DNA from: Klebsiella variicola
GTDB taxonomy: Bacteria; Pseudomonadota; Gammaproteobacteria; Enterobacterales; Enterobacteriaceae
Length of the DNA stretch: 64,000 nucleotides
NCBI RefSeq assembly: GCF_000828055.2
Contig: NZ_CP010523.2
Span: 2,666,001 to 2,730,000, forward strand
Reading direction: 5' to 3'
A model generated the notes under the pieces. The model did not search any database, was not told the origin of the DNA, and saw only the letters and a list, made by a program, of their open reading frames with translations. Position numbers and translations under genes: made by a program. Shown in pieces: positions 13,491 through 41,807 of the stretch. Within the stretch, counting starts at the first letter, position 1. The number at the start of each line of letters is the position of its first letter.

Positions 13491-14633
13491 TCACTCATTT
13501 TTTACTTTCGTCGCGGGCGGTGATGCCATCCAGTCGCGAATAATGTCACCGTATAGCTGTTCTGCCTCCGCCAGTCGGCTGAGCAGGCAGTACTCGTCGG
13601 TTTGATGCGCCATCGACGGCTCGCCGGGGCCGAGAATAATACAGGGCGGATCGCCCAATGCAGGCAGCAGCAGCGAGGCGTCGGTAAAGTAGGGCACCAC
13701 GCGCGGCGCAATCGGCTCAGCGTGCAGCGGCTGACAGCGTTGGTAAACCTGCTTAATCCACGCGTGATCCTCCCGGCTGAGGACGGCGGGCAGGTCGACC
13801 AGCGTGGAGACGGTGACGCTTTCGCCAAGCAGCGTCGTCAAGCGCTCCCGGATAGTGGCGTGCTGTAAATTGGGCGCGCTGCGGATATCGACATCAAAAC
13901 GCGTGCGGTCCGGTACGGAATTAATATTGAGTCCGCCTTCTATGCGTCCGACGTTGAGGGTGGGTTGCTTCATTAGCGGATGCGGCGCGCCTGGCGAAAA
14001 ATGCTGAATCTTACCCAGCGCATCCGCCGCAAGATAGATAGCATTGATCCCCAGCTCCGGCATCGCGCCGTGGGCGGTTTTCCCCCGCGTTTCGCAGCGT
14101 AGCCAGAGCGCGCCTTTATGGCCGATAACCGGATAGTTGGCGGTGGGTTCACCGACGATCAGCGCGCCCACCTCCGGCAACGTTGCGGAGGCGATCAGCG
14201 CCCGCGCGCCGTCGCAGCCGGTCTCTTCTCCGCCGGTTATCAGCAATACCGCGCCGCGTCCGGCGAGGATCGCTTCCCGCTGATGAACGCAGGCGACGGC
14301 AAACGCCGCTATCGCCGCTTTCATATCGCTGGATCCGCGGCCATAAAGACGCCCGTCTTCCATCTGCGAGCCAAAAGGATCGTACTGCCAGCGGGCATTT
14401 CCCAGCGGGACGGTATCCAGATGTCCGGTAAAGGCCAGCGGTTTACCGCTCTTCGCCCCGGGCAGGCTGGCAATAAGATTGCAGCGTCCCTCGCCGAACG
14501 ACGACAGCGAAACCTCAAAACCGCTCTCGTCAAGCCAGTCGGCGAAGAACCGCATGCAGTCGGCTTCGCTGCCCGGCGGGTTGATGGTGTTAAAGCCCAG
14601 CAGCTGCCGGGCGAGCTCAAGGGGCGTGGTCAT
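13491..14633 (-). CDS. M20 family metallohydrolase (ArgE/DapE-like)
   Basis: The 380-residue protein has the di-zinc site of M20 enzymes: TGHLDTV (H71, D73), GRGSSDMK (D103), the catalytic pair in GGEETG (E136-E137), and a dimerisation domain after residue 175. Such enzymes hydrolyse N-acyl amino acids or peptides. Its start overlaps the last base of the GATase-like gene, so the two are coupled; it is the last gene of the LacI-controlled operon. The real substrate is unknown; a deacylation step in that pathway is the inference. Confidence 0.85.
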   Translation of the reverse strand: MTTPLELARQLLGFNTINPPGSEADCMRFFADWLDESGFEVSLSSFGEGRCNLIASLPGAKSGKPLAFTGHLDTVPLGNARWQYDPFGSQMEDGRLYGRGSSDMKAAIAAFAVACVHQREAILAGRGAVLLITGGEETGCDGARALIASATLPEVGALIVGEPTANYPVIGHKGALWLRCETRGKTAHGAMPELGINAIYLAADALGKIQHFSPGAPHPLMKQPTLNVGRIEGGLNINSVPDRTRFDVDIRSAPNLQHATIRERLTTLLGESVTVSTLVDLPAVLSREDHAWIKQVYQRCQPLHAEPIAPRVVPYFTDASLLLPALGDPPCIILGPGEPSMAHQTDEYCLLSRLAEAEQLYGDIIRDWMASPPATKVKNE

Positions 14634-15388
14634 CAGCGGCGTTCCGTCAGCCAGTCGAGGCAGTTAATCCATAGCTGGCGATAGCCGGGCCATTTGGCAA
14701 ACTCTTCCGGCAGCCAGTGCGCCGACATGTCGCTGGTCCACACCAGTGAGCGACCCTGCTGATATTCGCGAACAGCCAGTAGCGGATGATCGGTACCGGC
14801 CACGGTCGCCAGCAGTTTGCCTTCCGGGTGCATTTCAACTTCGTTATAGCCCAGCAGCCACGGCCATTCGCCCGGAATATCGTTAAACAGGGGGTGAGAC
14901 TCCGTCACTTCGGCATAGCAGCCTTCCGGGGTTTCAATGCGATCGTCCCAGGCCAGGCAGCGTACCGGCAGCACTTTCTCCACCGCGGTATGGCGGTAGC
15001 GCGCGCCGCCGTTGATTCCCTGGAAGCTGTAATAGCCGCCGATCATCATCAGCGCCCCCCCGCCGGCCACGTAATCATGCAGGAGCGTTAAACGGTTGGC
15101 GGTTCGGCGGCTCTTCAGCCAGGTGTCCGGATGCAGCAGCAGCGTATTGGCGCCAATGTCCGAGAGAATAATCGCATCCCACTCCTGCAGCGCTTCCAGC
15201 GTCAGCGGAAAGTCGGTCGCCGCCGCGTGGGCGGGCATATAGGTAATGGCATAGGGACTGTCGGCGAGCGCGGCCAGAAAGTCCGTTGCGCCGGTGTGCC
15301 AGGTGGCGGTGGCAAACTGGTCGAAGCCTTTAACGTGCGTTGACGTGCTGGTCCAGGACTCACCGACCAGTAAGATTTTTTTCTGCAT
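14633..15388 (-). CDS. GATase1-like protein (putative glutamine amidotransferase family)
   Basis: The 251-residue cytoplasmic protein has no signal peptide. It belongs by pattern to the class I GATase-like group (MQKKILLVGESWTS, YITYMPAHAAATDFP-like segment, GGALMMIGGYYSFQG, TSDMSAHW). The canonical GATase nucleophile Cys is not evident, so amidotransferase activity is doubtful; related domains act as hydrolase or binding proteins. It lies 14 bp after the phosphotriesterase-like gene in the operon and is coupled to the M20 gene. Its function is unknown. Confidence 0.7.
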   Translation of the reverse strand: MQKKILLVGESWTSTSTHVKGFDQFATATWHTGATDFLAALADSPYAITYMPAHAAATDFPLTLEALQEWDAIILSDIGANTLLLHPDTWLKSRRTANRLTLLHDYVAGGGALMMIGGYYSFQGINGGARYRHTAVEKVLPVRCLAWDDRIETPEGCYAEVTESHPLFNDIPGEWPWLLGYNEVEMHPEGKLLATVAGTDHPLLAVREYQQGRSLVWTSDMSAHWLPEEFAKWPGYRQLWINCLDWLTERR

Positions 15389-15402
15389 GATGACGTTTCC
15401 TT

Positions 15403-16482
15403 TTATCCGCCAAAGACCCGCTGGGGGTTTCCAATCATTAAGGTTTCAAGTTGTTCGCCGCTGACGCCGTGGCGCCGCAGACGGGGAACAAAATGCTTGA
15501 GTATGTAGCCATAACCGTGGCCGCCGTAGCGGGTGAGCATGGTTTTCAGGAAGACGTCCTGCGACAGCAGAATTTGCTGGATGTAGCCGTCGTCAATCAG
15601 CTCGCGGATCGCGCGGGCGTTCTCCTCGTCGGAGGGCGACTGCGCCGACTCGTCGGCGTAGTAATAGCTCATGCCAATCATGTCGTATTCGAGAAACGCC
15701 CCGCGCTGCGCCAGTTCGCGCTGGTAGCGCTTATCGGCAAAGCTGGGATTCATATGGCACAGCACGGTATGGCGTAAATCGGCGCCTTCCTGCTCGAGAA
15801 TATCCAGCACCCGATGGCCCAGCCGCTCCCAGCCAGGCAGATGGACCTCGATCGGCACGCCGGTCGCGGCGCTGGCCCGACCCGCAGCGCGCAGGGATTT
15901 CTCCTCATCCGGCGTAAAGCGGCTGGAGATACCGATTTCGCCGATAAGTCCGGCGAGCACCTCCGGTTTCTCCTCCGCGCCGCCAAGATCGTAAATCAGC
16001 CGTTCGGTCAGCTGTTCGACGCTGCTGATTTTTACCCACTCAGGGTGCGAAGGTTCCAGATAGAGCCCGGTCCCCATAATGATATTCAGACCGGTCAGAC
16101 GCGCGATGCGCGCCAGCGCTTTCGGATCGCGGCCAATGCCGATATTGGTCGGGTCGACCACCGTTTCTCCGCCAAGGGCTCGATATTTAGTCAGCTCGTC
16201 AATCGCAACGTCGACATCAAACAGCTGACAGTTATCGCGGCTCATCAGCGGGTTGAGCGACAGTTCGCCAAGGTTTTCCATTTTCACCGGCATTTCGGCA
16301 AGACGGCGATCGCTGCAGCAGCAGGGCGGCACCCATTTGCCGGAGGCATCCAGCAGAATATGCTCATGCATCAGAGTAACGCCCATTTCGTTAATCGGTA
16401 GTGGGCCAAGCACAGTCATTACGTAACCGCTGCTGACGCCAACCGGCAGCGGGGAGGGATGGCGAAAAATTGATCCTTTCAT
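15403..16482 (-). CDS. Phosphotriesterase-like metal hydrolase
   Basis: The 359-residue amidohydrolase-superfamily TIM barrel has the HxH motif MHEHILLD (H39, H41) and a bridging Glu in GEIG, as in E. coli PHP; true phosphotriesterases use carbamylated Lys. The later ligands are EVHLPGW, LCHMNP and the Asp of LSQDV. Members with a bridging acid are often lactonases. It lies 3 bp after the permease gene. In this operon it probably hydrolyses an imported ester, lactone or phosphoester; the substrate is not known. Confidence 0.82.
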   Translation of the reverse strand: MKGSIFRHPSPLPVGVSSGYVMTVLGPLPINEMGVTLMHEHILLDASGKWVPPCCCSDRRLAEMPVKMENLGELSLNPLMSRDNCQLFDVDVAIDELTKYRALGGETVVDPTNIGIGRDPKALARIARLTGLNIIMGTGLYLEPSHPEWVKISSVEQLTERLIYDLGGAEEKPEVLAGLIGEIGISSRFTPDEEKSLRAAGRASAATGVPIEVHLPGWERLGHRVLDILEQEGADLRHTVLCHMNPSFADKRYQRELAQRGAFLEYDMIGMSYYYADESAQSPSDEENARAIRELIDDGYIQQILLSQDVFLKTMLTRYGGHGYGYILKHFVPRLRRHGVSGEQLETLMIGNPQRVFGG

Positions 16483-16485
16483 CAG

Positions 16486-17496
16486 CTATCCTTTTGCCGC
16501 GGAGCGCGTCGGGTTGAGAATGCGGGTGTTCAGCCAGATAGCCAGCAGGATAATGGTGCCGGTGGCTATCTGGGTGTAAAACGGCGAAATATGCGACAGG
16601 ATCAGCCCGTTCTGAATGACCGCAATCGACAGCGCGCCCAGCAGCGTGCCAATAATAGTCCCGAAGCCGCCAAACAGACTGGTGCTGCCTAGCACAACGG
16701 CAGCAATGACCTGCAGTTCAAAGCCTTCGCCCTGGTTGGAAGAGCCGCTGCCGAGGCGTGCGGTAATGATCATCCCCGCCAGCGCGGCGGCCATTCCGCT
16801 GATGATATAGACCTTCATGGTGACCGCTTTGGTGTTAATGCCGCTGCGCCGCGCGCCTTCGGCGTTGGCGCCGATAGCGGTCACGTAGCGGCCAAAGCGC
16901 ATATGGTTGAGAACGATATGCCCGATCACCAGTATCATCATGCCGATCAGCGCGGGCATGGGGATACCAACTACCCACGCGCGTCCGATAAAGGTAAACA
17001 GGCTGTCAGCCGGCACCGGAATCGAGTAGCCCTGGGTGACCAGCAGCGCGATGCCGCGAACTACGGCCAGGGTGGCGAGCGTGACGATGAACGCCGGAAT
17101 GCCTTCATAGGCAATAAAGAAGCCGTTGATGGCGCCAACGAATCCGCCGAGCAGCAGGCCGCCGAGGAGTACCACCGGCCACGGCAGCCCCCAGTTATTC
17201 AGAGCGATAGCGGAGAGCGCGCCGACCAGCGCCAGGGTGGAGCCTACCGACAGATCGATACCGCCGGTGGTAATGACCAGAGTCATTGCCGTCGCAACGA
17301 TCAGCAGCGGGGCGCTCTGACGGATAATGTTGAGCCAGTTGGTGCCGGTGAGAAAGTTGCTGGTGATCAGCGAAAACACCACGCAGCAGAAGACGAAAAA
17401 GAGCGCGATGCTGACCACGCCTGAGTGGTTATGCAGCAGGCGGCGCGGCAGCGAATGCTGGATCATGCGGGAGCTGCTTAAGTTCATGATACTCAT
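16486..17496 (-). CDS. Sugar-type ABC transporter permease (RbsC family)
   Basis: The 336-residue, multi-span membrane protein has the RbsC/XylH family hallmark TGGIDLSVGSTLALVGALSA near residue 75 and the coupling-loop region GANAEGARRSGI. One permease gene implies a homodimer. It lies 9 bp after the ATPase gene. Together with the ATPase and the binding protein at 20001-20954 it forms a ribose/autoinducer-2-type importer for a carbohydrate-like substrate. Confidence 0.9.
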   Translation of the reverse strand: MSIMNLSSSRMIQHSLPRRLLHNHSGVVSIALFFVFCCVVFSLITSNFLTGTNWLNIIRQSAPLLIVATAMTLVITTGGIDLSVGSTLALVGALSAIALNNWGLPWPVVLLGGLLLGGFVGAINGFFIAYEGIPAFIVTLATLAVVRGIALLVTQGYSIPVPADSLFTFIGRAWVVGIPMPALIGMMILVIGHIVLNHMRFGRYVTAIGANAEGARRSGINTKAVTMKVYIISGMAAALAGMIITARLGSGSSNQGEGFELQVIAAVVLGSTSLFGGFGTIIGTLLGALSIAVIQNGLILSHISPFYTQIATGTIILLAIWLNTRILNPTRSAAKG

Positions 17497-17505
17497 CCTG
17501 TTACC

Positions 17506-18288
<783 letters not shown>

Positions 18289-18368
18289 CTGATAACTCCC
18301 ATCGCTGTGGCCGGGAAAATGTTCGCCATCCTGCGGGAGGGACTCTATCCGACACGGTTTACAATCTA

Positions 18369-18382
18369 GTAAACCGGTTTAC
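18369..18382. promoter_or_regulatory. LacI-type operator 1 (perfect palindrome)
   Basis: GTAAACCGGTTTAC is a perfect 14-bp palindrome with a central CG, typical of LacI-family sites. An additional half site (GGTTTAC) lies 7 bp upstream at 18356-18362. It is 87 bp before the ATPase start and 173 bp from an identical copy, a spacing that could allow looping. Confidence 0.75.
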
Positions 18383-18510
18383 CTGCGGAATAGAGCACTC
18401 GCCAGGGCAGTCAGGACAAACGCTATGTAAGATATTTGTTCGCCAGTAAGAACATTGCAGCATCCGTGCCAGGGCTGGAACCACACAGCAGCCCTGTAAC
18501 TTAACCTTAT

Positions 18511-18535
18511 GTATTCAATACACTTAATTGAATAC
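18511..18535. promoter_or_regulatory. Inverted repeat in the operon leader
   Basis: GTATTCAAT (18511-18519) and ATTGAATAC (18527-18535) are perfect 9-bp arms around a 7-bp spacer, next to operator 2. It may be a second regulator's site or a leader hairpin, since it lies just downstream of the inferred transcription start. Confidence 0.4.
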
Positions 18536-18541
18536 AATCCG

Positions 18542-18563
18542 GTAAACCGGTTTACTGATTATA
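18542..18563 (-). promoter_or_regulatory. LacI-type operator 2 overlapping the operon promoter
   Basis: The second GTAAACCGGTTTAC occupies 18542-18555. On the minus strand a perfect TATAAT (-10) lies directly upstream at 18563-18558, so the operator would cover the transcription start, the usual repressor position. The -35 is weak. The leader to the ATPase gene would be about 260 nt and also contains operator 1. Confidence 0.7.
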
Positions 18564-18604
18564 GTGAATAAATTGTTAATTGATCGTTTTTTGCGCCAAA
18601 AGCG

Positions 18605-18618
18605 GGCGCTTTTGCGCC
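18605..18618 (-). terminator. Hairpin after the LacI gene
   Basis: GGCGC and GCGCC flank TTTT (minus-strand loop AAAA), 15 bp after the LacI-family stop codon. On the minus strand a CGCTTTT follows. It probably limits read-through from the repressor gene into the ABC operon, but the T tract is short. Confidence 0.4.
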
Positions 18619-18632
18619 ATTTTGGGACGGGC

Positions 18633-19655
18633 TTAACAGATCTTGATCGAGTCGCGGCCAATCCATTCAACCGGCAGGCGGGTTTCCGCAGGGATGTCCG
18701 GATCGTCGTTTAGCAGGCGCATCATGATGTTCACCGCGGTACGGCCCAGTTCGCGGGCGGGCTGACGGATAGTGGAGATCCGCGGCTGGGTAAAATCGGC
18801 GTAGTTGGCGTCATCGAAGCCGACTAACGAAAGCGCCTCCGGCGCCTGGAGCCCGCTGGCGCGCAAGCCATCGAGCAGGCCGAGCACCAGATAGTCGCTG
18901 GCCGCGAAGACGGCGGTGGGGCGAACCGGTTGGCTGAACAGGTACCGCAGCGCCTGCTGGCCAAACTCGCGCTGGTAGTCGCCATACATCACCCATTCGG
19001 GCGGCCAGCTCAGGCCCGCTTGCTCCATCGCGGTGCAAAAGCCCTGATAGCGCTCACGGACGCTCATCAGCTTGTCCGGGCCACCGACGAAAGCGATATG
19101 GCGATGCCCGGCGGCGATCAGTTTTTCGGTGGCGATCCGCCCGCCCTGGACGTTATCGGCAAACACTTTCGGTACCTTACTGCCGGGAATATCTTCATCC
19201 AGCAGGACAATGCGTTCGTGACGCTGGACTTCCTTGCGCAGCAGGCCATTATCGGGGCGGTTGGTGGTGAACAGCAGACCGTCGACCTGGCAGGTATCCA
19301 GCCAGCGAATGAACTGGCACTCTTTTTCCGGGTTGTTGCGGGTGATACACAGCACCAGGCTGTAGCCGCTGGCAGAAGCAGCCTCTTCGGCAGCGTCGGC
19401 CAGTTCGGCAAAGAAGGGGTTGGTAATATCGGGAAGCACCAGGCCAAGCGTTTCGCTGCCGCCTTTGCTAAGACGGCGTGCCAGGCTATTGCCGCGATAG
19501 TCCAGTTCGCGAATGGCGGTTTCGATGCGGTCGATGGTGTCCTGCGGCAGCACAATACTGTTGTTCATATAGCGCGACAGGGTCGCCTTCGACAGCCCCG
19601 CCAGCTTTGCCACATCGGATAACAATACGCGTTTTATACTCATTTCCTGCGCCAT
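18633..19655 (-). CDS. LacI family transcriptional repressor
   Basis: The 340-residue protein has an N-terminal HTH with hinge (LSDVAKLAGLSKATLSRYMN at about 12-31) and a periplasmic-binding-protein-like effector domain (LGLVLPDITNPFFAEL). It lies between the ABC operon (same strand, downstream) and the divergent binding-protein gene. It is therefore the likely owner of the GTAAACCGGTTTAC sites and senses a carbohydrate-like pathway compound. The start could also be Met5 (MSIKRVL). Confidence 0.92.
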   Translation of the reverse strand: MAQEMSIKRVLLSDVAKLAGLSKATLSRYMNNSIVLPQDTIDRIETAIRELDYRGNSLARRLSKGGSETLGLVLPDITNPFFAELADAAEEAASASGYSLVLCITRNNPEKECQFIRWLDTCQVDGLLFTTNRPDNGLLRKEVQRHERIVLLDEDIPGSKVPKVFADNVQGGRIATEKLIAAGHRHIAFVGGPDKLMSVRERYQGFCTAMEQAGLSWPPEWVMYGDYQREFGQQALRYLFSQPVRPTAVFAASDYLVLGLLDGLRASGLQAPEALSLVGFDDANYADFTQPRISTIRQPARELGRTAVNIMMRLLNDDPDIPAETRLPVEWIGRDSIKIC

Positions 19656-20000
19656 TTCTGCCAGAATCGGCTATCTGTAACATAGTTAAGCGCGGTGGAT
19701 ACAGCAATTTCTCTGCGAACAATCACCAAAAATAAATGCTTGACAAATTTTAATCAGCAGAGAATTGTATAGGCAGTTTACCGCATCATCCGGGAAGTCA
19801 TTCCCAACCCCGTTTAAGTTATTCCAGTCGCGCACCGACACGGACCGGTTGCCGGGATGACATTAAGCAGGTATCCGCCGAACGTTCAATGATTGTTCTG
19901 GCGATATAGACGATATTTGCCCGCCAAAAAAATAATCCTTCTGCGTTCGCATGCGGCGCGGAACTCTGCTGGCTATCAACTATTCCCGACGAGGATACTG
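19656..20000 (+). promoter_or_regulatory. Divergent promoter region, repressor / binding protein
   Basis: This 345-bp gap has no gene. A consensus -35 TTGACA lies at 19740-19745 on the plus strand, but no matching -10 is clear. A half site of the operator motif (GTTTAC) follows at about 19775. The good ribosome site GAGG (19991-19994) fixes the binding-protein start at 20001. No full copy of the palindrome was found here. Confidence 0.4.
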
Positions 20001-20954
20001 ATGATGTTATTTCACACCGGAAAACTGCGTTTCCTTGCTGTCGCCACGACCATGCTGGCATCAATGAGTTTTATTTCTGCCGCCAGCGCTGCCGGTCCGA
20101 CTTATGCGCTGGTACAAATCAACCAACAGGCGCTGTTCTTTAATCTGATGAATAAAGGCGCACAGGATGCGGCCAAAGCCAGTGGCAAGGATTTAGTTAT
20201 TTTTAACTCTAACGATAATCCCGTGGCGCAAAACGACGCGATAGAAAACTATATTCAGCAAGGCGTTAAAGGCATTCTGGTTGCTGCTATCGACGTTAAC
20301 GGGATCATGCCAGCGGTTAAAGAAGCCGCCGCCGCAAACATTCCGGTGATTGCGATTGATGCCGTATTACCGGCCGGGCCACAGGCAGCTCAGGTCGGCG
20401 TTGATAATATTGAAGGCGGCAGAATTATTGGTCAATACTTCGTAGACTACGTGCAGAAAGAGATGGGCGGCCAGGCGCGACTGGGTATTGTCGGCGCGCT
20501 GAATTCGGCCATTCAGAACCAGCGGCAGAAAGGGTTCGAAGAGACGCTGAAAAGCAATCCGAAGATTACTATCGCTAACGTGGTCGACGGGCAGAATGTG
20601 CAGGATAAAGCGATGACCGCGGCGGAAAACCTGATCACCGGTAACCCGGATCTGACAGCGATTTATGCCACCGGCGAACCCGCGCTGCTCGGCGCTATCG
20701 CCGCCGTAGAAAACCAGGGGCGGCAGAAAGATATTAAAGTCTTTGGCTGGGATCTGACGGCGAAGGCGATTTCCGGTATGGACGGCGGCTACGTCACCGC
20801 CGTACTGCAGCAGGACCCGGAAAAGATGGGCGCCGAAGCCCTGAATGCGCTGAACAGCATCACGTCGGGTAAAACCGTGCCGAAAACCATTCTGGTTCCG
20901 GCGACGGTGGTGACCAAAGCGAACGTCGATTCATACCGTCCGCTGTTTAAGTAG
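20001..20954 (+). CDS. Sugar-type ABC transporter binding protein (RbsB family)
   Basis: The protein is 317 residues from ATG 20001 (GAGG 6 nt upstream); the longer frame has no ribosome site and would bury the signal peptide. The signal peptide ends ISAASA; the type I periplasmic fold follows (YALVQINQQALFFNLMNKG, GILVAAIDVNG, GVDNIEGGRIIG). It supplies substrate to the permease/ATPase encoded 1.7 kb away on the other strand. Its stop is separated from the convergent kinase stop by a single base. Confidence 0.9.
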   Translation: MMLFHTGKLRFLAVATTMLASMSFISAASAAGPTYALVQINQQALFFNLMNKGAQDAAKASGKDLVIFNSNDNPVAQNDAIENYIQQGVKGILVAAIDVNGIMPAVKEAAAANIPVIAIDAVLPAGPQAAQVGVDNIEGGRIIGQYFVDYVQKEMGGQARLGIVGALNSAIQNQRQKGFEETLKSNPKITIANVVDGQNVQDKAMTAAENLITGNPDLTAIYATGEPALLGAIAAVENQGRQKDIKVFGWDLTAKAISGMDGGYVTAVLQQDPEKMGAEALNALNSITSGKTVPKTILVPATVVTKANVDSYRPLFK

Positions 20955-20955
20955 G

Positions 20956-21828
20956 TCAGCGCGCGCCGTCCGTGGTTAACAGGGCGGCGAGCTCATGGCT
21001 GCCGGGAAACGCTCTGAGCGTCCCCCGGCGGCTAACGGTAATGGCGGCAGCGCGACTGGCGTGCGCCAGCGCCAGCGCATCCGGCGCGACGCCGCGCAGC
21101 AGGGCGGAGGCCAACATGACGGCGAGGAACGTGTCGCCCGCGCCGGTAGTATCAAGCGCCTCGGCGGGCACGGCGGGACAAAACTGACGCTGGCCCTCCT
21201 GGACCAGCCAGGCGCCTGCGGCGCCCTGGGTAATCACTAAGGTTTTCACCCCGTATGGCTGGAGCAGCTCGGCCTCGGATTCATTGACCACCGCGATGTC
21301 GATGAGCGGCCACAGATGGCAAAAGTCAGGATTGACAGGTGAGGGGTTGAATACCGTCGTCATGCCGCGGCTTCTGGCGTACTGGAACAGCGCCCGCGTT
21401 TTATCGAGGGAGAAATTGCCCTGCTGTAGCAGAATATCGCCAGCGACGGCATCCGCCATATGCGGAATAATTTCATCCAGGCTGAATGTATCGGCCGCCG
21501 CCGTAGTGGTAATGATGGCGTTGTCGCCATCAGCGCTATTTAAAATAATCGAGGTATCGCTATGTTGATTGAAATGGCCGTCGGGTAGTAGCGTCAGTGG
21601 TTCATTTTTTATCTGCTGGCGGATCCACGCGCCGTTGCTGTCATTTCCCGTGGCGGCAATTAAACGCGTCTCTATTCCGCAGCGGGATAATATAATCGCC
21701 TGGTTCGCGCCTTTACCGCCGATATCCTGCGACACTTTAACGCCGTGAATGGAGGCTCCTTTTTTCGGTATATCCGGAATGGACCAGGTTTCATCTACGG
21801 TAATATTACCAGTAACGTAAACACGCAT
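20956..21828 (-). CDS. PfkB family sugar/nucleoside kinase
   Basis: The 290-residue ribokinase-fold protein has the N-terminal GG motif (DIGGKGANQAIILSRCG) and the C-terminal signature ALDTTGAGDTFLAVML with the catalytic Asp. It should phosphorylate the imported compound. It converges on the binding-protein gene (1-bp gap) and diverges from the BtpA gene only 26 bp away, so promoters of both must lie in each other's coding sequence. A perfect 12-bp palindrome (21799-21810) lies in its 5' end. Confidence 0.88.
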   Translation of the reverse strand: MRVYVTGNITVDETWSIPDIPKKGASIHGVKVSQDIGGKGANQAIILSRCGIETRLIAATGNDSNGAWIRQQIKNEPLTLLPDGHFNQHSDTSIILNSADGDNAIITTTAAADTFSLDEIIPHMADAVAGDILLQQGNFSLDKTRALFQYARSRGMTTVFNPSPVNPDFCHLWPLIDIAVVNESEAELLQPYGVKTLVITQGAAGAWLVQEGQRQFCPAVPAEALDTTGAGDTFLAVMLASALLRGVAPDALALAHASRAAAITVSRRGTLRAFPGSHELAALLTTDGAR

Positions 21829-21854
21829 AGTGTTCCCTTAACAGGATGGATAAG

Positions 21855-22700
21855 ATGGTTGCTATCTCAGCAGAAAAAACGAACGCAATACAAGCTATTT
21901 TTTCACGAAGCAAGGCTGTTATTGGTGTTATTCATTGTGACCCATTTCCTGGCTCGCCAAAATATCGAGGAAAATCAGTCTCTGATATTGTTGAACGTGC
22001 ACTTCGCGATGCTGAAAATTATATTTCAGGCGGTGTTCATGGTCTGATTATTGAAAACCATGGCGATATTCCTTTCTCTAAACCTGAGGATATCGGCCAT
22101 GAAACCTCAGCGCTGATGGCGGTCATTACCGAGAAAGTTCGTGAACGTTTTGCTGTGCCGCTGGGCATTAACGTTCTGGCTAACGCGGCGATCCCGGCAA
22201 TGGCGATCGCCCTGGCGGGAGGCGCCGATTTCGTCCGCGTAAACCAGTGGGCCAACGCCTATATCGCCAACGAAGGATTTATAGAAGGGGCGGCCGCTAA
22301 GGCGCTGCGCTACCGCAGTATGCTGCGCGCTGAACATATTCGCGTTTTTGCCGATAGCCACGTTAAGCACGGTAGCCATGCCATTGTCGCCGATCGTTCG
22401 ATTCAGGAACTGACGCGCGATGTCGATTTCTTCGAGGCTGACGCGGTGATCGCCACCGGCCAGCGTACGGGCGATAGCGCCACGATGGCGGAAATTGACG
22501 AGATCCGCGCGGCGACGGAACTACCGCTCCTGGTGGGCTCCGGGGTGACACCGGCTAACGTGAAGCAGATCCTCGGGCGGACTCAGGGGGTCATTGTGGC
22601 CAGTACAATGAAGGTCGATGGCGTCTGGTGGAACGATGTTGAGCTGGCCCGGGTGAAACATTTTATGTCGGTCGCGCAGGCCGCGCTGGAGGAAGCTTAA
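21855..22700 (+). CDS. BtpA/SgcQ family TIM-barrel protein
   Basis: The protein is 281 residues from the ATG at 21855, chosen because AGGA lies 8 nt upstream; the ATG at 21846 (284 residues) has no spaced ribosome site. It is of the BtpA/SgcQ family (AVIGVIHCDPFPGSP, DAENYISGGVHGLIIENHGD, GADFVRVNQWANAYI, GQRTGDSATM). E. coli SgcQ sits in a sugar-PTS operon; the biochemical role of the family is not established. Here it probably acts on the phosphorylated substrate. Its stop overlaps the TenA start by one base. Confidence 0.85.
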   Translation: MVAISAEKTNAIQAIFSRSKAVIGVIHCDPFPGSPKYRGKSVSDIVERALRDAENYISGGVHGLIIENHGDIPFSKPEDIGHETSALMAVITEKVRERFAVPLGINVLANAAIPAMAIALAGGADFVRVNQWANAYIANEGFIEGAAAKALRYRSMLRAEHIRVFADSHVKHGSHAIVADRSIQELTRDVDFFEADAVIATGQRTGDSATMAEIDEIRAATELPLLVGSGVTPANVKQILGRTQGVIVASTMKVDGVWWNDVELARVKHFMSVAQAALEEA

Positions 22701-23344
22701 TGGAAGCGTTTAGCGAACGCCTGCTGCGCGAACATCAACCGGCGTGGCAGGCGATGCAGCAGCACCCGTTTGTGACTGATATCGAACAGGATCGTCTGCC
22801 GACAGTCGTCTTCAACCGCTATCTGGTGTTTGAGGGCAACTTTGTCGCGACGGCGATCGCGATTTTTGCCCTCGGGGTCAGCAAAGCGCCGGGTATTCAA
22901 CAGCAGCGCTGGCTGATTGGCGTGCTGAATGCCCTGGTTGATATACAGATCGCGTGGTTTGAACAGGTGTTGTCAGCGCGGCAGATCGATCCCGCTGAGT
23001 ACCCGGATGATTTGCCCGGGGTACGGCGCTTTCGCGACGGTATGCTGCGGACCGCCCACGAGGGCAGCTATGAGCAGATTGTGACCCTGATGTTCGGTGC
23101 GGAATGGATGTACTATTTCTGGTGCCGACGGGCGAGCGAACATTATCAGAGCGATGCTGATTTACGACGCTGGGTGGAAATGCACGCGGAGGACGAATTT
23201 TATCAGCAGGCTCTCTGGCTAAAAAACGAACTCGACCGCTGCGCCATGGCGCTGAGTGAAGACGAAAAGCAGGCGTTATCGGCGCTTTACGGCGAGGTGC
23301 TGCAGTGGGAAATTGATTTCCATCACGCGGCGTACGAGGAGTAG
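22700..23344 (+). CDS. TenA/thiaminase-2 family protein lacking the usual Cys
   Basis: The 214-residue, all-helical protein is of TenA type (HPFVTDIEQDRLPTVVFNRYL, then FEGNFVATAIAIFALG). The segment where thiaminase II carries its catalytic Cys reads FGAEWMYYFW here, so it belongs with the Cys-less TenA_E forms, whose substrates are mostly unknown aminopyrimidine-like compounds. It is translationally coupled to the BtpA gene (TAATG). A salvage role in this pathway is inference. Confidence 0.82.
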   Translation: MEAFSERLLREHQPAWQAMQQHPFVTDIEQDRLPTVVFNRYLVFEGNFVATAIAIFALGVSKAPGIQQQRWLIGVLNALVDIQIAWFEQVLSARQIDPAEYPDDLPGVRRFRDGMLRTAHEGSYEQIVTLMFGAEWMYYFWCRRASEHYQSDADLRRWVEMHAEDEFYQQALWLKNELDRCAMALSEDEKQALSALYGEVLQWEIDFHHAAYEE

Positions 23345-23721: not shown

Positions 23722-25332
23722 ATGAAACGAAGCATTTATTCACAGAACAGTTTATTGCGCATCAGTCTGCTTTCCGCGCTAACGCTTACTGCCAGCTTCA
23801 CCACTCACGCACAGGATAAACCTGTCGCGGGGGGTGTGCTGACGGTCGCTCTGGGCAGCGATACCCCGATTATTGACCCCTCTATTACCGCTTATTCCGT
23901 CACCGCTCTGGTTACGCGTAACGTGGTGGATTCTTTGGTCGGCCAGGCGGAAGATAACAGCTTTACACCATGGCTGGCGGAACGCTGGGAAATTAAAAAC
24001 AATAACCGCGAATACACCTTCCATCTTCGCAAGGATGTGACTTTTAGTGATGGCACGAAACTGGATGCTGCGGCGGTAAAATATAACTTTGAACGCATAC
24101 TCGATCCGAAAACCACCTCCAGTTACTCCAAATCGTTGTTGGGGCCGATTGACGCGATCACTACGCCAGATGAGTACACCGTGGTGATCCGCTATAAAAC
24201 GCCTTTCGCACCGCTGCTGCAGGGGCTGAGCTTGCCGTATCTCGGTATTCAGTCACCGGCTTATCTGCAGAAAACGGCGAATACCAGCAATACCGTGGTC
24301 GGTTCCGGTCCCTTTATCCTCGAATCGTTTGTCAAAGGCAGCGGGAGTAAACTCAGCAAGCGCGCCGATTACAACTGGGGTCCGGGCTATGCCACCCATA
24401 AAGGCCCGGCATGGCTGGATAAGATCGAATTTAAGTACCTGCCGGAGTCAGCGGTACGTCTTGGCGCGCTGAATAGCGGGCAGGTACAGGTGATCGATGC
24501 CATTCCGCCGGTGAATTATGCGCAGGTAAAAAATAACCCGAAGCTGGATGTGATCACCAGGGAAAACCCCGGCGTTCCGCGCGTCCTTTATTTGAATAGC
24601 GACACAGGGATCTTCAGCGACCTGAAAGTGCGGCAGGCCTTCCAGAGCGCCATCGATCGCACTACTGCCGTTAAAGCCGCGTTCTTTGGCATCCTGAAAC
24701 CTGCCGACAATATTCTTGGACCCGCTACGCTGGATTACGATCCGGCCATTGCCAGCCAGTGGGGGTTTGATCTGCAAAAAGCCCGCCGTCTTCTGGATGA
24801 AGCCGGCTGGCAGCAAACCGATAGCGAAGGCTACCGGGTAAAGGAGGGTAAACGCCTTACTGTGCAATTTACCTACTCTTCAAACGATGTCGAAGCCGCT
24901 GACGTGACGCTGTTCCAGGCAATTCAATACCAGGTAAAACAAGCCGGTTTTGAACTGAAACTCGATCCGGTGGATTCAGGCATTCTCAGCAGCCGCACGG
25001 CGGCTAACCAGTACGATATTATCTCGAACTATTTTGTTCGCCCGGAGCCGGACATCCTGCGTACCGTTTTTCACTCCAACTATATTCCGCCGAAGGGGAA
25101 CAACTTCAGCCGCGTTAAAGCGCTGGATAGCCAACTGGAAACCGCTGTCGGTGCCAGCGAAGCCGAGCGTAAACGCATCTACTATGCCATCCAGCACCAG
25201 ATTATCGATCAGGCCTGGGCGGTGCCAATTTACATCCCGGCATATCAGTTAGGGAAAGCCAAACAGGTGCAGGGCATTAGCTGGGCCACGAACGCGAAGC
25301 CGAATTTCTATGATGTCTGGATCCAACGCTAA
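23722..25332 (+). CDS. ABC transporter binding protein, SBP family 5
   Basis: The 536-residue secreted protein has a signal peptide ending TTHAQ and the DppA/OppA/NikA family pattern (GGVLTVALGSDTPIIDPS, LAERWEIKNNNREYTFHLRK, FSDGTKLDAAAVKYNFER). It binds a peptide, opine, glutathione-like or chelated-metal substrate; which one is not visible. It is the first of four overlapping genes encoding a complete importer. Confidence 0.9.
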   Translation: MKRSIYSQNSLLRISLLSALTLTASFTTHAQDKPVAGGVLTVALGSDTPIIDPSITAYSVTALVTRNVVDSLVGQAEDNSFTPWLAERWEIKNNNREYTFHLRKDVTFSDGTKLDAAAVKYNFERILDPKTTSSYSKSLLGPIDAITTPDEYTVVIRYKTPFAPLLQGLSLPYLGIQSPAYLQKTANTSNTVVGSGPFILESFVKGSGSKLSKRADYNWGPGYATHKGPAWLDKIEFKYLPESAVRLGALNSGQVQVIDAIPPVNYAQVKNNPKLDVITRENPGVPRVLYLNSDTGIFSDLKVRQAFQSAIDRTTAVKAAFFGILKPADNILGPATLDYDPAIASQWGFDLQKARRLLDEAGWQQTDSEGYRVKEGKRLTVQFTYSSNDVEAADVTLFQAIQYQVKQAGFELKLDPVDSGILSSRTAANQYDIISNYFVRPEPDILRTVFHSNYIPPKGNNFSRVKALDSQLETAVGASEAERKRIYYAIQHQIIDQAWAVPIYIPAYQLGKAKQVQGISWATNAKPNFYDVWIQR

Positions 25333-26272
25333 GCTGCTGGCAGCAGGCAAGCGCCTGCTGACCATTTTCGCCGTGTTGTGGGGTGCGGCAACGCTGACCT
25401 TTGTTGCGGTAAAACTGATCCCCGGCGATCCTGTGGCAATTCTGATAGGCAGCGCCAACAGCGTTGTGGATGATAGTTTTCGCGAGACACTGACCCGCCA
25501 GTTCGGCCTGGATAAGCCACTGTGGTGGCAATATTTGCGCTACTGTGGCGAGGCGCTGACGGGCAACCTTGGCGTGAGTTATCAGTATCGCCAGCCTGTT
25601 GTGCAGGTGATTAGCGCAGCGTTGAAAGAGACGGTGCCGCTGGCCGTCAGCGCCCTGGCGCTGGCACTGGTACTGGCGGTATTTAACGCATTACTGACAG
25701 CCGGACGTCATCCGCGTCTGCGGTCTCTGCTTGCCGGGTTGGAGCTGATGCTGCTTAGCACACCGGTGTACTGGATCGGCATCGTGTTGTTGAGCATTTT
25801 CAGTTTCAAACTGCAATGGTTTCCGGTGACCGGTAACGATGGCTGGATCGCCCTTGTGCTGCCGGTGGTGACGCTCAGCCTGCCGCTGGCTGCGACACTC
25901 AGCCAGGTGCTGCGTGATGGGCTGGAGGAGGCGCTTTCGCAGCCGTTCGCCATGACCGTGCGTACGCGAGGGGTGAGTGAAACTGCGCTGCGCTTACGGC
26001 ATGCGTTGCGCCATGCCTCGCTGGCGGTGTCGACGCTGACGGGGACGCTGCTGGCCAGCGTATTAGGCGGCTCAATTCTGACCGAAACAGTATTTGGTCG
26101 GGCGGGGCTGGGGCAAATCACTCTCGGTGCGATTGAGAACCGAGACATGCCCCTGGTGCTGGGGGTGGTGATGTTCTCCGCGCTGTTGTTTGTGGTGATT
26201 AACCTGCTGATTGATACCCTTTATTTACTGATCGATCCCCGTCTACGTCTGCGAGGGCATGCTGATGAGTGA
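25310..26272 (+). CDS. ABC transporter permease (DppB family)
   Basis: The 320-residue, six-span protein has the DppB-type N-terminus (LTIFAVLWGAATLTFVAVKLIPGDP) and the coupling EAA-like segment (MTVRTRGVSETALRLRHAL). Its start lies 23 bp inside the binding-protein gene; ATG 25313 is an alternative. It forms a heterodimer with the next gene's product. Confidence 0.9.
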   Translation: MMSGSNAKLLAAGKRLLTIFAVLWGAATLTFVAVKLIPGDPVAILIGSANSVVDDSFRETLTRQFGLDKPLWWQYLRYCGEALTGNLGVSYQYRQPVVQVISAALKETVPLAVSALALALVLAVFNALLTAGRHPRLRSLLAGLELMLLSTPVYWIGIVLLSIFSFKLQWFPVTGNDGWIALVLPVVTLSLPLAATLSQVLRDGLEEALSQPFAMTVRTRGVSETALRLRHALRHASLAVSTLTGTLLASVLGGSILTETVFGRAGLGQITLGAIENRDMPLVLGVVMFSALLFVVINLLIDTLYLLIDPRLRLRGHADE

Positions 26273-27128
26273 TCTTTTACTGCGGGTGGCCCGCCGCGAC
26301 GGGGGGCGCTATCGTAACCCGTGGCTGGCGCCGGGTACCAGCATTCCGTTGTTACTGGTGCTACTGCTCGTGGTGGCGGTGTTTTTTCCATCGCTATTCA
26401 CGCCGTACACCCCCGAACAGATGGATTTCAGCGCGATTTTGCAGCCGCCGGACCTCAGACACTGGTTCGGTACTGACCAGTTGGGGCGTGATGTGTTTAC
26501 CCGCGTGGTGTATGGCACCTCGCTGTCGCTGAGCATTGGGGTCGGCGCGACCCTGATTGCCAGCGCGGGCGGTATTGTGCTGGGGACACTGGCAGGTCTT
26601 GCGCCCAGGGCGGTACGGCAGTTACTCGTACGGCTACTGGACATTATGCTGGCGTTCCCCGATTTGCTGTTGGCGCTGCTGGCTATCACGGTGTTGGGGC
26701 GTGGGCCAGAGAATACCCTGCTGGCGGTCGGACTGGCCGGCATTGCTGGCTATGCCAGGCTGGTGCGCGCGCAAGTGTTGCAGGTCAGGTTATCGGGGTA
26801 TGTGCAGCATGCGGTGGCGTTGGGGGAGCCGCCAATGGTGATTATTTTGCGCCATATTGTGCCCAATACGCTGCGCCCGCTGCTGGTACTGGCAACGGTG
26901 GGGATAGGGTATTCCATATTATCCGCCTCGGCCCTCAGTTTCCTTGGACTTGGGGTGACTCCGCCGACGGCGGAGTGGGGCGCATTGCTCTCTGAGGGAC
27001 GTAATTTTCTCGATAGCGCCCCATGGGTCAGCCTGCTGCCCGCCAGCGTTGTCGCGCTGTCGGTGATTGCCATTACGCTGCTGGGCCGACGTGTTCAAAC
27101 CCTTATTGCCAAAGGCGGGATCGCATGA
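26265..27128 (+). CDS. ABC transporter permease (DppC family)
   Basis: The protein is 287 residues from ATG 26265, which has GAGGG 7 nt upstream; the ATG at 26259 is too close to that site. DppC hallmarks are the HWFGTDQLGRDVFTRVVYG segment and the coupling loop around VALGEPPMVIILRHIVPNTL. It overlaps the previous gene by 8 bp and the next by 4. Confidence 0.9.
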   Translation: MSDLLLRVARRDGGRYRNPWLAPGTSIPLLLVLLLVVAVFFPSLFTPYTPEQMDFSAILQPPDLRHWFGTDQLGRDVFTRVVYGTSLSLSIGVGATLIASAGGIVLGTLAGLAPRAVRQLLVRLLDIMLAFPDLLLALLAITVLGRGPENTLLAVGLAGIAGYARLVRAQVLQVRLSGYVQHAVALGEPPMVIILRHIVPNTLRPLLVLATVGIGYSILSASALSFLGLGVTPPTAEWGALLSEGRNFLDSAPWVSLLPASVVALSVIAITLLGRRVQTLIAKGGIA

Positions 27129-28798
27129 CTTCAGAGACCTTCCAGCAACCGCTGTTACAGGTGGCGCAACTGAGCGTCAGCTTCCCCTCGCCGCAGGGGC
27201 TGATTGAGGCGGTTAACGCCTTATCGTTTGACGTGCATGCCGGTGAAGTCCTGGCTTTGGTAGGCGAGTCCGGTTCGGGTAAATCCGTCACGGCCCGGAC
27301 GCTAGTCGGGCTGGCGGGGGCAGGGGCGGCTGTTCGCGCCGAGTCCCTGATATTGCATGGGCACGATGGCCTGTCGCAGAATTTACTGGCGTGCGATGCC
27401 CGCCGTTGGCAGCAACTACGCGGGCGCGAAATTGGTTTTGTTTTGCAGGATGCACTGACCTCGCTTGACCCGCTGCGCCGGATTGGTCAGGAAGTCGCGG
27501 AGCCGTTGTTGACGCACCGCCTGGAACGGGGGGCGGCAGTTCGCGAACGCGTGGCGGAGCTGTTAACGCAAACCGGCATCCCCGATCCGCATAACCGGAT
27601 GGCGCAGTACGCACATGAACTCTCCGGTGGCTTGCGCCAACGAGCGCTCATCGCGTCGGCGCTGGCGGCGGGGCCGCGATTACTCATTGCCGATGAACCT
27701 ACTACCGCGCTGGACGCCACCGTACAAAAACAAGTTTTGAATGTATTCAGGGCCCTGGCGGATGCCGGGCATGGCGTGCTGCTGATCACCCATGATTTAT
27801 CGGTGGTGGCGGATATTGCCGACCGTGTGGTGGTGATGCGGCAGGGCAAAGCAGTGGAGAGCGGCAAGGTGCGACAGGTGCTGCATGCGCCGCAACACCC
27901 TTATACCCGCCGTCTGCTGGCGGCCATTCCCTCTGCCGGTACGCGTGGGACGTGGTTAACAGGAAACGATCCGCTGGGTCAAACGGTAGTGCGGGAGAAC
28001 ATCAGTACTGACAGCACCACACCCGTGCTGGCTGCCGATAACGTATCACTGGCGTATGTTCTGCCGGATGGCCGTCGCTTGCAGGCCGTCAATCAGGTGA
28101 CGTTAGAGGTCGCGCAGGGCGAAACTCTGGGCATTGTGGGCGAATCCGGTAGCGGGAAGACCACGCTAGGCAAACTGGCGCTGGCGCTGCAGGCACCGCA
28201 ACAGGGCGAGATCCTTCTCGCTGGGCAACCATGGAGCAGGCTGACAGAACGTCAGCGGCAGCCGTTGCGGTCGCGTATCCAGACGATTGTGCAGGATCCG
28301 CTGGGTTCATTTAATCCGCAATATAACGTGGCGCAATTGCTGCAACAGCCTCTGCGCCTGCATACGACGCTCACAGCCGCGGACCGGTTGTCACGTGCGC
28401 AGGCGTTGCTGGCGCTGGTTGGTTTAAGTCCTGATCTGCTGACGCGACGTCCGGCCACGCTTTCCGGTGGGCAGCGGCAACGTATCGCCATCGCCCAGGC
28501 CCTGGCCTGCGAGCCGGATATTCTGATTTGCGACGAGCCGGTGTCGGCGCTGGATGTCACCACCCAGGCGCAAGTGTTGGATTTGCTGGTAGCGCTGCAA
28601 CGCCGTTTGCATCTGTCAATGCTGTTTATCTCTCATGATCTGGGCGTGGTGCAGCATATGAGTCATCGTATTGCGGTGATGAAAGACGGCGAGGTAGTCG
28701 AAAGCGGCAGTGTGGATCAAATTTTTCGGGCGCCACGCCACCCGTGGACTCGACAATTGTTATCAGCTGTTGGGCAGACGCCGTTGCGATATAACTGA
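27125..28798 (+). CDS. Dual-domain ABC transporter ATPase (DppD-DppF fusion type)
   Basis: The protein is 557 residues from ATG 27125, overlapping the permease stop (ATGA). Two complete ATPase halves are present: GESGSGKS/ELSGGLRQR/LLIADEP and GESGSGKT/LSGGQRQR/ILICDEP, each followed by an oligopeptide-transporter C-terminal segment (HPYTRRLL, HPWTRQLL). It is the YejF/GsiA-like arrangement rather than separate D and F proteins. Confidence 0.92.
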   Translation: MTSETFQQPLLQVAQLSVSFPSPQGLIEAVNALSFDVHAGEVLALVGESGSGKSVTARTLVGLAGAGAAVRAESLILHGHDGLSQNLLACDARRWQQLRGREIGFVLQDALTSLDPLRRIGQEVAEPLLTHRLERGAAVRERVAELLTQTGIPDPHNRMAQYAHELSGGLRQRALIASALAAGPRLLIADEPTTALDATVQKQVLNVFRALADAGHGVLLITHDLSVVADIADRVVVMRQGKAVESGKVRQVLHAPQHPYTRRLLAAIPSAGTRGTWLTGNDPLGQTVVRENISTDSTTPVLAADNVSLAYVLPDGRRLQAVNQVTLEVAQGETLGIVGESGSGKTTLGKLALALQAPQQGEILLAGQPWSRLTERQRQPLRSRIQTIVQDPLGSFNPQYNVAQLLQQPLRLHTTLTAADRLSRAQALLALVGLSPDLLTRRPATLSGGQRQRIAIAQALACEPDILICDEPVSALDVTTQAQVLDLLVALQRRLHLSMLFISHDLGVVQHMSHRIAVMKDGEVVESGSVDQIFRAPRHPWTRQLLSAVGQTPLRYN

Positions 28799-41405: not shown

Positions 41406-41807
41406 TCACCTCGCGCCGGGTATTCCGCCAAAACGACAGAAACGTTTCCGCAGACAGCAACTATCATGCCAACGAGCTAATACGCCCTCTTTCAGTTACG
41501 CCGATCGGCGCTAAGTTACCGGGAACTATCACTGAAAATCCGCGCCCCCCCTTTTCTGCTGGCATATAGGGCGTCGAATAGCGGAACGACAAAACGTGGA
41601 ACCGCACCCTAAACGTGCGGCGTCTGCACTATGGCGGACCATCACACGACGAGGGGCAGGCCCGCAACCGAATGTCCCTTCCAGCCAAACGACTGTCCTG
41701 CTGAAGCAAGTACGCCGCAAATTTCTCCCTAGTATCAGTAAGCGTAAGGTCTTCCGGCCACACCGTGCTCCGGACATAACACGACATCAGACAAGAGGGG
41801 GAACGTC
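41406..41807. promoter_or_regulatory. Divergent promoter region of the nitrile island
   Basis: The 402 bp between the AraC gene and the channel gene contain no convincing gene. A perfect 12-bp palindrome CGCCGATCGGCG lies at 41499-41510. A strong GAGGGGG ribosome site precedes 41808. No clear -10/-35 pair was found, consistent with activator dependence. Confidence 0.4.

Follow-up and report, generated by a model that had tools for sequence, protein, structure and literature searches.

In the 64,000-nucleotide stretch of the Klebsiella variicola genome analyzed here (the window; NZ_CP010523.2, positions 2,666,001 to 2,730,000, part of a single contig of 5.52 Mb), ten genes at window positions 13491–23344 are conserved as one set that comprises a sugar-type importer, a LacI-family repressor, a PfkB kinase, a BtpA/SgcQ protein and several hydrolase-like enzymes. 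We read this cluster, tentatively and at somewhat less than even confidence, as an accessory catabolic pathway, repressed by LacI and probably under nitrogen control, for a small compound in which an amide or amine nitrogen part is linked to a pentose-like (ribosyl-type) sugar. The cluster is common to many plant- and gut-associated bacteria, is carried by plasmids of plant-associated bacteria, and brings together PTE-related hydrolases and three families of unclear role (BtpA/SgcQ, PF07090, and TenA proteins without the thiaminase cysteine) in one regulated, widespread unit. Crystal structures of a near-identical binding protein and kinase exist, and a single ligand would help to assign all of these proteins and to correct doubtful catalog names. 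The ten genes are:

13491–14633, minus strand: M20 metallo-hydrolase of the ArgE/DapE type, in the C-N hydrolase slot (Pfam/NCBIfam; His/Asp/Glu conservation)
14633–15388, minus strand: glutamine amidotransferase (GATase)-like protein, GATase1_like (PF07090), STM3548/STM1381 family, with an apparent nucleophile-elbow stretch that has no Cys (Pfam, alignment)
15403–16482, minus strand: PTE-family metal hydrolase of the PTE-related branch, closest to 3k2g, then 3rhg and 9efa (Pfam, alignment)
16486–17496, minus strand: ATP-binding cassette (ABC) permease, BPD_transp_2 (Pfam)
17506–18288, minus strand: single-domain ABC ATPase, matching chiefly the N-terminal half of CUT2 ATPase models (Pfam/NCBIfam)
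18633–19655, minus strand: LacI-family repressor (Pfam/NCBIfam)
20001–20954, plus strand: RbsB-type periplasmic binding protein, near-identical to PDB 5hsg (Pfam, structure-sequence match)
20956–21828, minus strand: PfkB kinase, ribokinase-like, near-identical to PDB 3i3y/3ikh and antiparallel to both neighbors (Pfam, structure-sequence match)
21846–22700, plus strand: BtpA/SgcQ protein, a TIM barrel by AlphaFold2 (Pfam, model)
22700–23344, plus strand: TenA-family protein with A134-E135 at the place of the thiaminase II catalytic Cys (Pfam, alignment)

All ten open reading frames are intact, full length and above Pfam cut-offs, bearing out the gene families named in the original prediction; the binding-protein, BtpA and TenA genes lie on the plus strand and the other seven on the minus strand. 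None of the ten genes matched an oxidoreductase family in the Pfam scan, which supports the pathway outlined above. Residue conservation was scored in alignments of 52 PTE, 48 kinase, 58 GATase-like, 40 M20 and 53 binding-protein rows, from which the GATase-like sequence of L015, the LacI sequence of L049 and five M20 rows with an alignment running past a stop were left out (L numbers are individual loci, G numbers individual genomes). The metal and motif residues that were checked are kept in the PTE, kinase, GATase-like and M20 alignments.

Within the genus, 10 of 20 genomes (own genome included) carried the GATase-like, BtpA and TenA genes together and the other 10 had none of the three, with the GATase-like and BtpA starts 7.2–7.3 kb apart on one contig in each of the 10 carriers. 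Across 217 genomes of the order, close homologs of the GATase-like and BtpA proteins were detected only in the own genome and G129, in both cases together. We further retrieved 52 loci from named genomes with the GATase-like protein as query (40 from Enterobacterales and 12 from betaproteobacteria, alphaproteobacteria and others), and all ten genes occurred in one order in 35 of the 52, that is, in 35 of the 40 Enterobacterales loci. Only TenA was missing from four other Enterobacterales loci (L030, L031, L056 and L062), while L049 was without the kinase, BtpA and TenA and retained the left half. The identical distribution of three genes drawn from two halves over 20 genomes, together with the recurrent gene order, excludes a chance grouping, and the halves to the left and right of the repressor, on whose co-occurrence the original prediction had staked itself, do occur together. 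Rearranged relatives were found in alpha- and betaproteobacteria, and both halves formed one continuous run in Roseivivax, Paracoccus aminophilus, Allorhizobium ampelinum, Rhizobium leguminosarum and others.

A core of binding protein, ATPase, permease, PTE and GATase-like protein, usually accompanied by the kinase and BtpA, was recognizable outside the Enterobacterales in six of the 12 loci (L057, L058, L060, L061, L064 and L068), and eight selected plasmid loci (L018, L019, L020, L076, L080, L093, L094 and L096) added further arrangements. Among 20 plasmid regions, picked from the best 40 of 189, 60 of 195 and 60 of 201 records and therefore to be taken as examples and not as frequencies, the core was present in 11 (L015–L020, L076, L080, L093, L094 and L096) and absent from nine (L073–L075, L077–L079, L091, L092 and L095). 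The PTE and GATase-like genes were adjacent in every core cluster mapped. Six loci were not used to define the core, namely L069, which has LacI, BtpA and kinase genes without it, and the distant GATase-like loci L063, L067 and L070–L072, which have other partners (NMT1-type importers and M24, CN_hydrolase, AAT and phosphoribosyltransferase domains; a PfkB kinase in L071, M20 and Bmp in L072).

The best clue to the chemistry is a variable slot, within the run or just upstream of it, that is filled by a C-N hydrolase. In Enterobacterales this is M20 (40/40 loci), whereas 13 of 14 non-enterobacterial core clusters draw on several families, the exception being L058, where no C-N hydrolase was found in the slot. 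TenA fills it in L018, L020 and L076, joined by M20 and an AstE/AspA protein in L064 and by a homolog of Zn-dependent hydrolases in L096. A Zn-dependent hydrolase stands there in L019, L080 and L093, which for L080 proved on scanning to be an M20 of the allantoate/carbamoylase type and for L019 and L093 is a label resting on annotation. The slot holds an M20D-type amidohydrolase in L094, an ArgE/DapE-like M20 in L057, a penicillin amidase family protein directly after the PTE–GATase pair in Caballeronia/Burkholderia (L060 10850–13279; L061 10848–13286), and an Amidohydro_1 protein upstream, beyond a regulator gene, in L068. Such regular filling by unrelated hydrolase families argues that a C-N bond must be cut, and that the nitrogen part may differ between hosts.

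The PTE-family protein retains its metal ligands (HxH, Glu, His, His and Asp) in 52/52 sequences and is far closer to 3k2g (1e-120) and to the PTE-related protein 9efa (3e-57) than to organophosphate hydrolases (best 7e-39). PTER proteins are amide hydrolases acting on N-acetyltaurine and N-acetyl-beta-alanine (PMC11374699, PMC13311154), and the Nature paper on PTER names 3K2G, the closest solved relative of the PTE protein here, as its top structural match. This closeness, which extends to the PTE-related branch and the metal ligands, supports an amide or amine substrate; nonetheless, the PTE protein here belongs to a different clade, and the anion-binding Arg positions of PTER are seemingly not kept in it, as judged by a rough mapping through 9efa with an uncertain offset. 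The same family membership could instead point to a sugar lactone, in which case the ligand would be a pentonolactone-type or acylated sugar, the kinase would yield a 5-phosphate, the PTE protein would open the lactone as phospho-furanose lactonases do, and the C-N hydrolases would serve a side part. PTE and PfkB kinase genes side by side and a match to the NCBIfam phospho-furanose lactonase model favor such a route, but at 83.5 bits the match is far below the cut-off of 630, similarity runs to the PTE-related branch, and the regular C-N hydrolase slot is left unexplained, making this route improbable. Degradation of homoserine lactones, as a PTE lactonase paired with the penicillin amidase of L060 and L061 might imply, was set aside, since the importer and kinase are of sugar type and the PTE protein is nearest the PTE-related branch.

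The remaining hydrolase-like proteins depart to differing degrees from their catalog names. In the GATase-like protein, the stretch GGYYSFQG, taken by eye as the nucleophile elbow in an alignment that held no true amidotransferase, contains no Cys, which makes the "glutamine amidotransferase" label doubtful; C144, conserved in 54/58 cluster proteins and replaced by Met in both Salmonella homologs (2gk3 and 3soz), is possibly a clade-specific functional residue. The His/Asp/Glu positions checked in M20 are kept in 39–40 of 40 aligned sequences. TenA has A134-E135, invariant in 18/18 aligned proteins, at the catalytic-Cys place, so that "Cys-less", as first described, is right for the catalytic position and wrong for the protein as a whole, which contains C142 and C181. 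It shares the Pfam family TENA_THI-4 with thiaminase II and TenA_E, yet it scores 57.8 bits against a cut-off of 130 for the thiaminase II (TenA_C) model, and no thiamine gene was found in the cluster. TenA_E amidohydrolase acts on N-formyl/amino-hydroxymethylpyrimidine, and TenA was the sole basis for the pyrimidine-like part that had been proposed for the substrate; this part is not upheld, as several relatives lack TenA or have another protein in its place. By contrast, import, phosphorylation and stepwise hydrolysis of a compound with sugar-like and amide- or amine-like parts retain support from the conserved transporter, the ribokinase-type kinase and the C-N hydrolase slot.

The importer and kinase point to a pentose-type sugar. 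The binding protein keeps the aromatic pair, Asp120, Asp251 and Gln271 in an alignment with RbsB. The ATPase is a single domain of 260 amino acids, about half the usual two-domain CUT2 ATPase (the best CUT2 model matched positions 4–251 of 510); thus, of the CUT2 importer first proposed, the RbsB-type binding protein and BPD_transp_2 permease stand, whereas the two-domain ATPase of about 500 amino acids does not. The kinase is 290 amino acids long with a PfkB domain only, keeps the GAGD motif and GGKGANQ stretch in 47–48 of 48 sequences, and is ribokinase-like at 178.3 bits, below the ribokinase cut-off of 299.65 (TIGR02152); the ligands of the near-identical structures 3i3y/3ikh are presumably ribose and ATP. 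Ribokinase homology, together with the ribose kinase activity measured for Salmonella RikA (PMC13432705), supports the pentose-type reading.

Two other sugar conjugates were weighed against a ribosyl-type amide. In glycated-amine (Amadori or opine-like) catabolism, an amino acid-deoxy-ketose would be phosphorylated and split, with BtpA as the deglycase and M20, PTE and GATase-like proteins acting on a lactam or lactone. This would suit the plasmids of plant-associated bacteria that carry the cluster, as well as pTiChry5 (L073 12004–24692), where a PF07090 protein lies beside oxoprolinase A/B, an SIS protein and a fructoselysine 6-kinase in a region that we take to serve deoxyfructosyl-oxoproline catabolism. 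However, the pTiChry5 GATase-like protein is merely 38% identical, none of the ten annotated core regions examined has an SIS-domain enzyme annotated inside its cluster, and the kinase scores only 39.6 bits with the fructoselysine kinase model against 178 for ribokinase, so we regard glycated-amine catabolism as rather unlikely. Salvage of a modified nucleoside, in which an unusual base riboside would be imported and phosphorylated and its base opened by the hydrolases, fits a ribokinase-like kinase and a BMP-type importer and nucleoside hydrolase directly upstream of the cluster in Palleronia. This neighbor is a single case, the importer here is of the RbsB and not the BMP type, and the annotation of the same ten core regions shows no nucleosidase, phosphorylase or base deaminase within the cluster run, which leaves nucleoside salvage with a low probability as well.

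BtpA would fit after the kinase in a pathway for a pentosyl-linked amide or amine. An AlphaFold2 model built from 30 sequences (mean predicted local distance difference test score 80.1) is a TIM barrel, and so are the structures that match it best, many of which act on phosphorylated compounds, including MJ1099 with phosphoribosyl pyrophosphate, hexulose-6-phosphate synthase, HisF, TrpA and KDPGal aldolase. In the model, the stretch VGSGVT...VIVAS looks like the usual phosphate site of such barrels. Based on this fold likeness we place BtpA after the kinase, where it probably acts; the literature searched gave no function for BtpA/SgcQ in such a context.

The antiparallel kinase gene is tightly packed and conserved in its position, a feature that went unremarked in the original prediction along with the LacI operators and sigma54-like element described below. 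The gaps are 1 bp between the binding-protein and kinase genes and 17 bp between the kinase and BtpA genes (20954–21846), and the start codons of the two latter genes, which are on opposite strands, are separated by 17–30 bp in those Enterobacterales loci that were measured. Roseivivax, Allorhizobium and Paracoccus aminophilus also have a divergent pair, at 32–46 bp, as does, by homology, Rhizobium sp. T1473, with a different gene as its left neighbor there; the two genes share one strand in R. leguminosarum, Shinella, R. tumorigenes, L058, L068 and L069. Where the pair is divergent, transcription of BtpA and TenA has to pass through, or start within, kinase-gene antisense, and the binding protein–kinase–BtpA–TenA stretch is perhaps a non-contiguous operon.

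Control elements lie on both sides of the repressor gene:

18370–18381, unstranded: LacI operator TAAACCGGTTTA, proximal (exact site search)
18431–18446, minus strand: conserved motif CTGGCGAACAAATATC, downstream of the sigma54-like element (alignment)
18456–18472, minus strand: sigma54-like -24/-12 element CTGGCACGGATGCTGCA (pattern search, alignment)
18543–18554, unstranded: LacI operator TAAACCGGTTTA, distal (exact site search)
18592–18629, minus strand: two dyads 21 bp apart, at about -155 and -176 from the inferred start, tentative enhancer (NtrC-like) sites (alignment, dyad scoring)
19740–19780, plus strand: conserved stretch CTTGACAA ... GAATTGTATA with the half operator GTTTACC, 5' of the binding-protein gene and promoter-like by eye (alignment)
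19912–19927, minus strand: second copy of the shared motif, TTGGCGGGCAAATATC (alignment)

The LacI–ATPase intergenic region contains two exact TAAACCGGTTTA operators about 173 bp apart, and two operators at 161–177 bp are present in 39/40 Enterobacterales loci; one copy in L053 has one mismatch, and L062 has one operator. Genome-wide, exact TAAACCGGTTTA was found in five places, two at the locus and three around sucrose-type (scr-like) genes, and with up to one mismatch there were 18 sites, compared with seven for the reversed pattern. The exact operators outside the locus (G000:C1:4125336-4126419; L085) stand beside a fructokinase, porin, phosphotransferase system and invertase, as read by eye from translations. 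We take them to reflect a DNA preference shared with another LacI-type repressor, with which cross-talk is possible.

Between the two operators, CTGGCAY-N5-CTGCW was present in 38 of 39 aligned sequences (the window and 38 of the 40 loci, L039 and L044 being left out), L062 having a short intergenic region without it. The search pattern used to locate the element itself required GGCA and GC, and positions outside that pattern are also conserved, namely the C before TGG (38/38), the T (37/38, one T-to-C change), the CT of CTGC (38/38) and the final A/T (38/38). The pattern YTGGCAYNNNNNYTGCW occurs twice in the window (at the locus and at 41456) against 0.26 expected by shuffling. The sigma54 -24/-12 consensus is TGGCAC-N5-TTGCW, and the conserved element fits such a promoter and thereby suggests nitrogen control. 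A tandem pair of dyads resembling NtrC sites, with a spacing of about 21 bp and positions near -155 and -176, was found in 29/39 sequences. The motif TGGCG-NN-CAAATATC occurs downstream of the sigma54-like element and, in the opposite orientation, before the binding-protein gene; with one mismatch allowed, five copies were found in the genome, two of them at the locus, and 0 in the reversed control. In the right half, a half operator accompanies a conserved stretch that contains TTGACA.

Taken together, the pathway for a pentosyl-linked amide or amine might run as follows. LacI would sit on the two operators, some 173 bp from each other, and repress the ATPase–permease–PTE–GATase–M20 operon until the ligand is present; a sigma54 promoter between the operators would tie expression to nitrogen shortage. 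The compound would be imported by the RbsB-type protein and a transporter made of a single permease and a single-domain ATPase. The first hydrolytic or rearranging steps may be carried out by PTE and the GATase-like protein, and the ribokinase-like kinase would phosphorylate the sugar. BtpA could then split or isomerize the sugar–nitrogen bond of the phosphorylated sugar to give a pentose phosphate, and M20 and TenA would hydrolyze the remaining C-N bond to release usable nitrogen, a last step that in other bacteria may fall to an allantoate/carbamoylase-type M20, an M20D type, penicillin amidase, Amidohydro_1 or AstE/AspA. A possible, if rather doubtful, sharper version is an undescribed route for scavenging nitrogen from a ribosyl- or pentosyl-linked amide, with PTE-related and PF07090 proteins starting the pathway, the kinase activating, BtpA as a true enzyme that splits or isomerizes a 5-phosphopentosyl–nitrogen bond, and exchangeable C-N hydrolases finishing. 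If so, one uptake and kinase core would serve several aglycones, and BtpA/SgcQ, PF07090 and non-thiamine TenA would together gain first enzymatic roles; if nitrogen control is real, the compound would be scavenged by plant- and gut-associated bacteria under nitrogen shortage.

Several observations weigh against this pathway or parts of it. In the binding protein, the places of RbsB Arg90, Arg141 and Asn190, which we take to be ribose-contact residues, hold other residues that vary little or not at all across 53 proteins from three proteobacterial classes, and kinase Asn138 stands at the place of RbsK Glu143 in 47/48 rows. Plain ribose is therefore unlikely; near-invariance of the substitutions, which itself speaks for the pathway, suggests that the relatives probably share one ligand other than free ribose. 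The kinase is not near the core in L018, L049, L060 and L061, nor is BtpA in L049, L057, L060, L061 and L064, so the order of steps may differ. The Amidohydro_1 protein of L068, which is encoded upstream and separated from the run by a regulator gene, does not necessarily cleave a C-N bond. The sigma54/NtrC reading comes from sequence only, and the dyads overlap a hairpin and have weak support per locus (best dyad 9–11 of 13; p 0–0.14). In the right half, no operator was found within two mismatches, and the promoter-like stretch was not listed by a sigma70 scan, which returned 5 promoters versus 6.1 in shuffles. Two modules that merely share a neighborhood, without a common pathway, would agree with the lack of a close operator match in the right half, the joint loss of BtpA, TenA and kinase from L049, and the separate occurrence of distant homologs in the order (GATase 41%–44% in G190 and G201; BtpA 25%–32% in G064, G172 and G209), but this already disfavored explanation is highly improbable given the identical presence and absence of close homologs over 20 genomes and the continuous runs of both halves in Roseobacteraceae, Rhizobiaceae, Paracoccus and Pararobbsia.

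Among known systems, rbs (RbsABC-RbsK-RbsR) resembles the cluster in its RbsB-type binding protein, BPD_transp_2 permease, ribokinase-like kinase and LacI regulator, whereas the cluster differs in its half-size ATPase, the replaced ribose contacts, and five extra enzymes. The E. coli sgc operon presumably places a BtpA/SgcQ protein in a sugar-type operon with phosphotransferase uptake and other enzymes; further BtpA proteins of the order are just 25%–32% identical to the one here. The likeness to phosphate-binding TIM barrels lies in the modeled fold of BtpA, and the 260-amino acid ATPase sets the transporter apart from CUT2 importers with two-domain ATPases of about 500 amino acids. The nearest description in the literature searched, mostly outside subscription papers, is the Salmonella rikA cluster STM3547–STM3550, in which a PfkB kinase, a PF07090 protein and a PTE protein occur in one cluster in a subset of Enterobacterales and whose substrate was left open by the authors (PMC13432705). 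That paper describes the kinase, GATase-like and PTE core as conserved in Salmonella, Citrobacter, Escherichia, Budvicia and Proteus; it names a DMT-family transporter in place of the ABC importer here, and no LacI, BtpA, TenA or M20 (PMC13432705). A rikA-type kinase has an N-terminal DeoR helix-turn-helix, as seen in an Escherichia albertii plasmid homolog, whereas the kinase here has the PfkB domain only. Accordingly, the view that no pathway of this exact composition has been described holds for the literature searched, where no paper on the full ten-gene set was found, but the kinase, GATase-like and PTE core is already described in this partial relative (PMC13432705).

Genes flanking the cluster were rarely found in the loci searched for them and were left out of the set: an MBL-fold gene (12031; only in L015 among the loci searched), a TolA-like gene (12951; only in L015, L021, L022, L059 and L065) and an oligopeptide ABC importer (23722 on), with weak homologs (26%–33%) only in L044, on the opposite side. 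This oligopeptide-type importer (23722–28798) was not seen beside TenA in relatives within about 2 kb past TenA. The LysR gene (11004) was likewise left out. In some Pantoea/Enterobacter-type loci, a second ABC importer directly follows TenA (L016 13498–18493, with a similar ATPase match in L032–L034, L036, L037, L039 and L040), and in L016 it is followed by an ArgE/DapE-type deacylase. The PF07090 neighborhood on pTiChry5 is, in its own right, a lead for these proteins in the breakdown of sugar–amino acid conjugates. In Klebsiella pneumoniae CP125156 (L015 8019–15729), BtpA is identical to the protein here and PTE 99.7% identical, an IS1 lies between the kinase and BtpA, and the GATase-like gene is unannotated with a stop in its translation; this island may be decaying.

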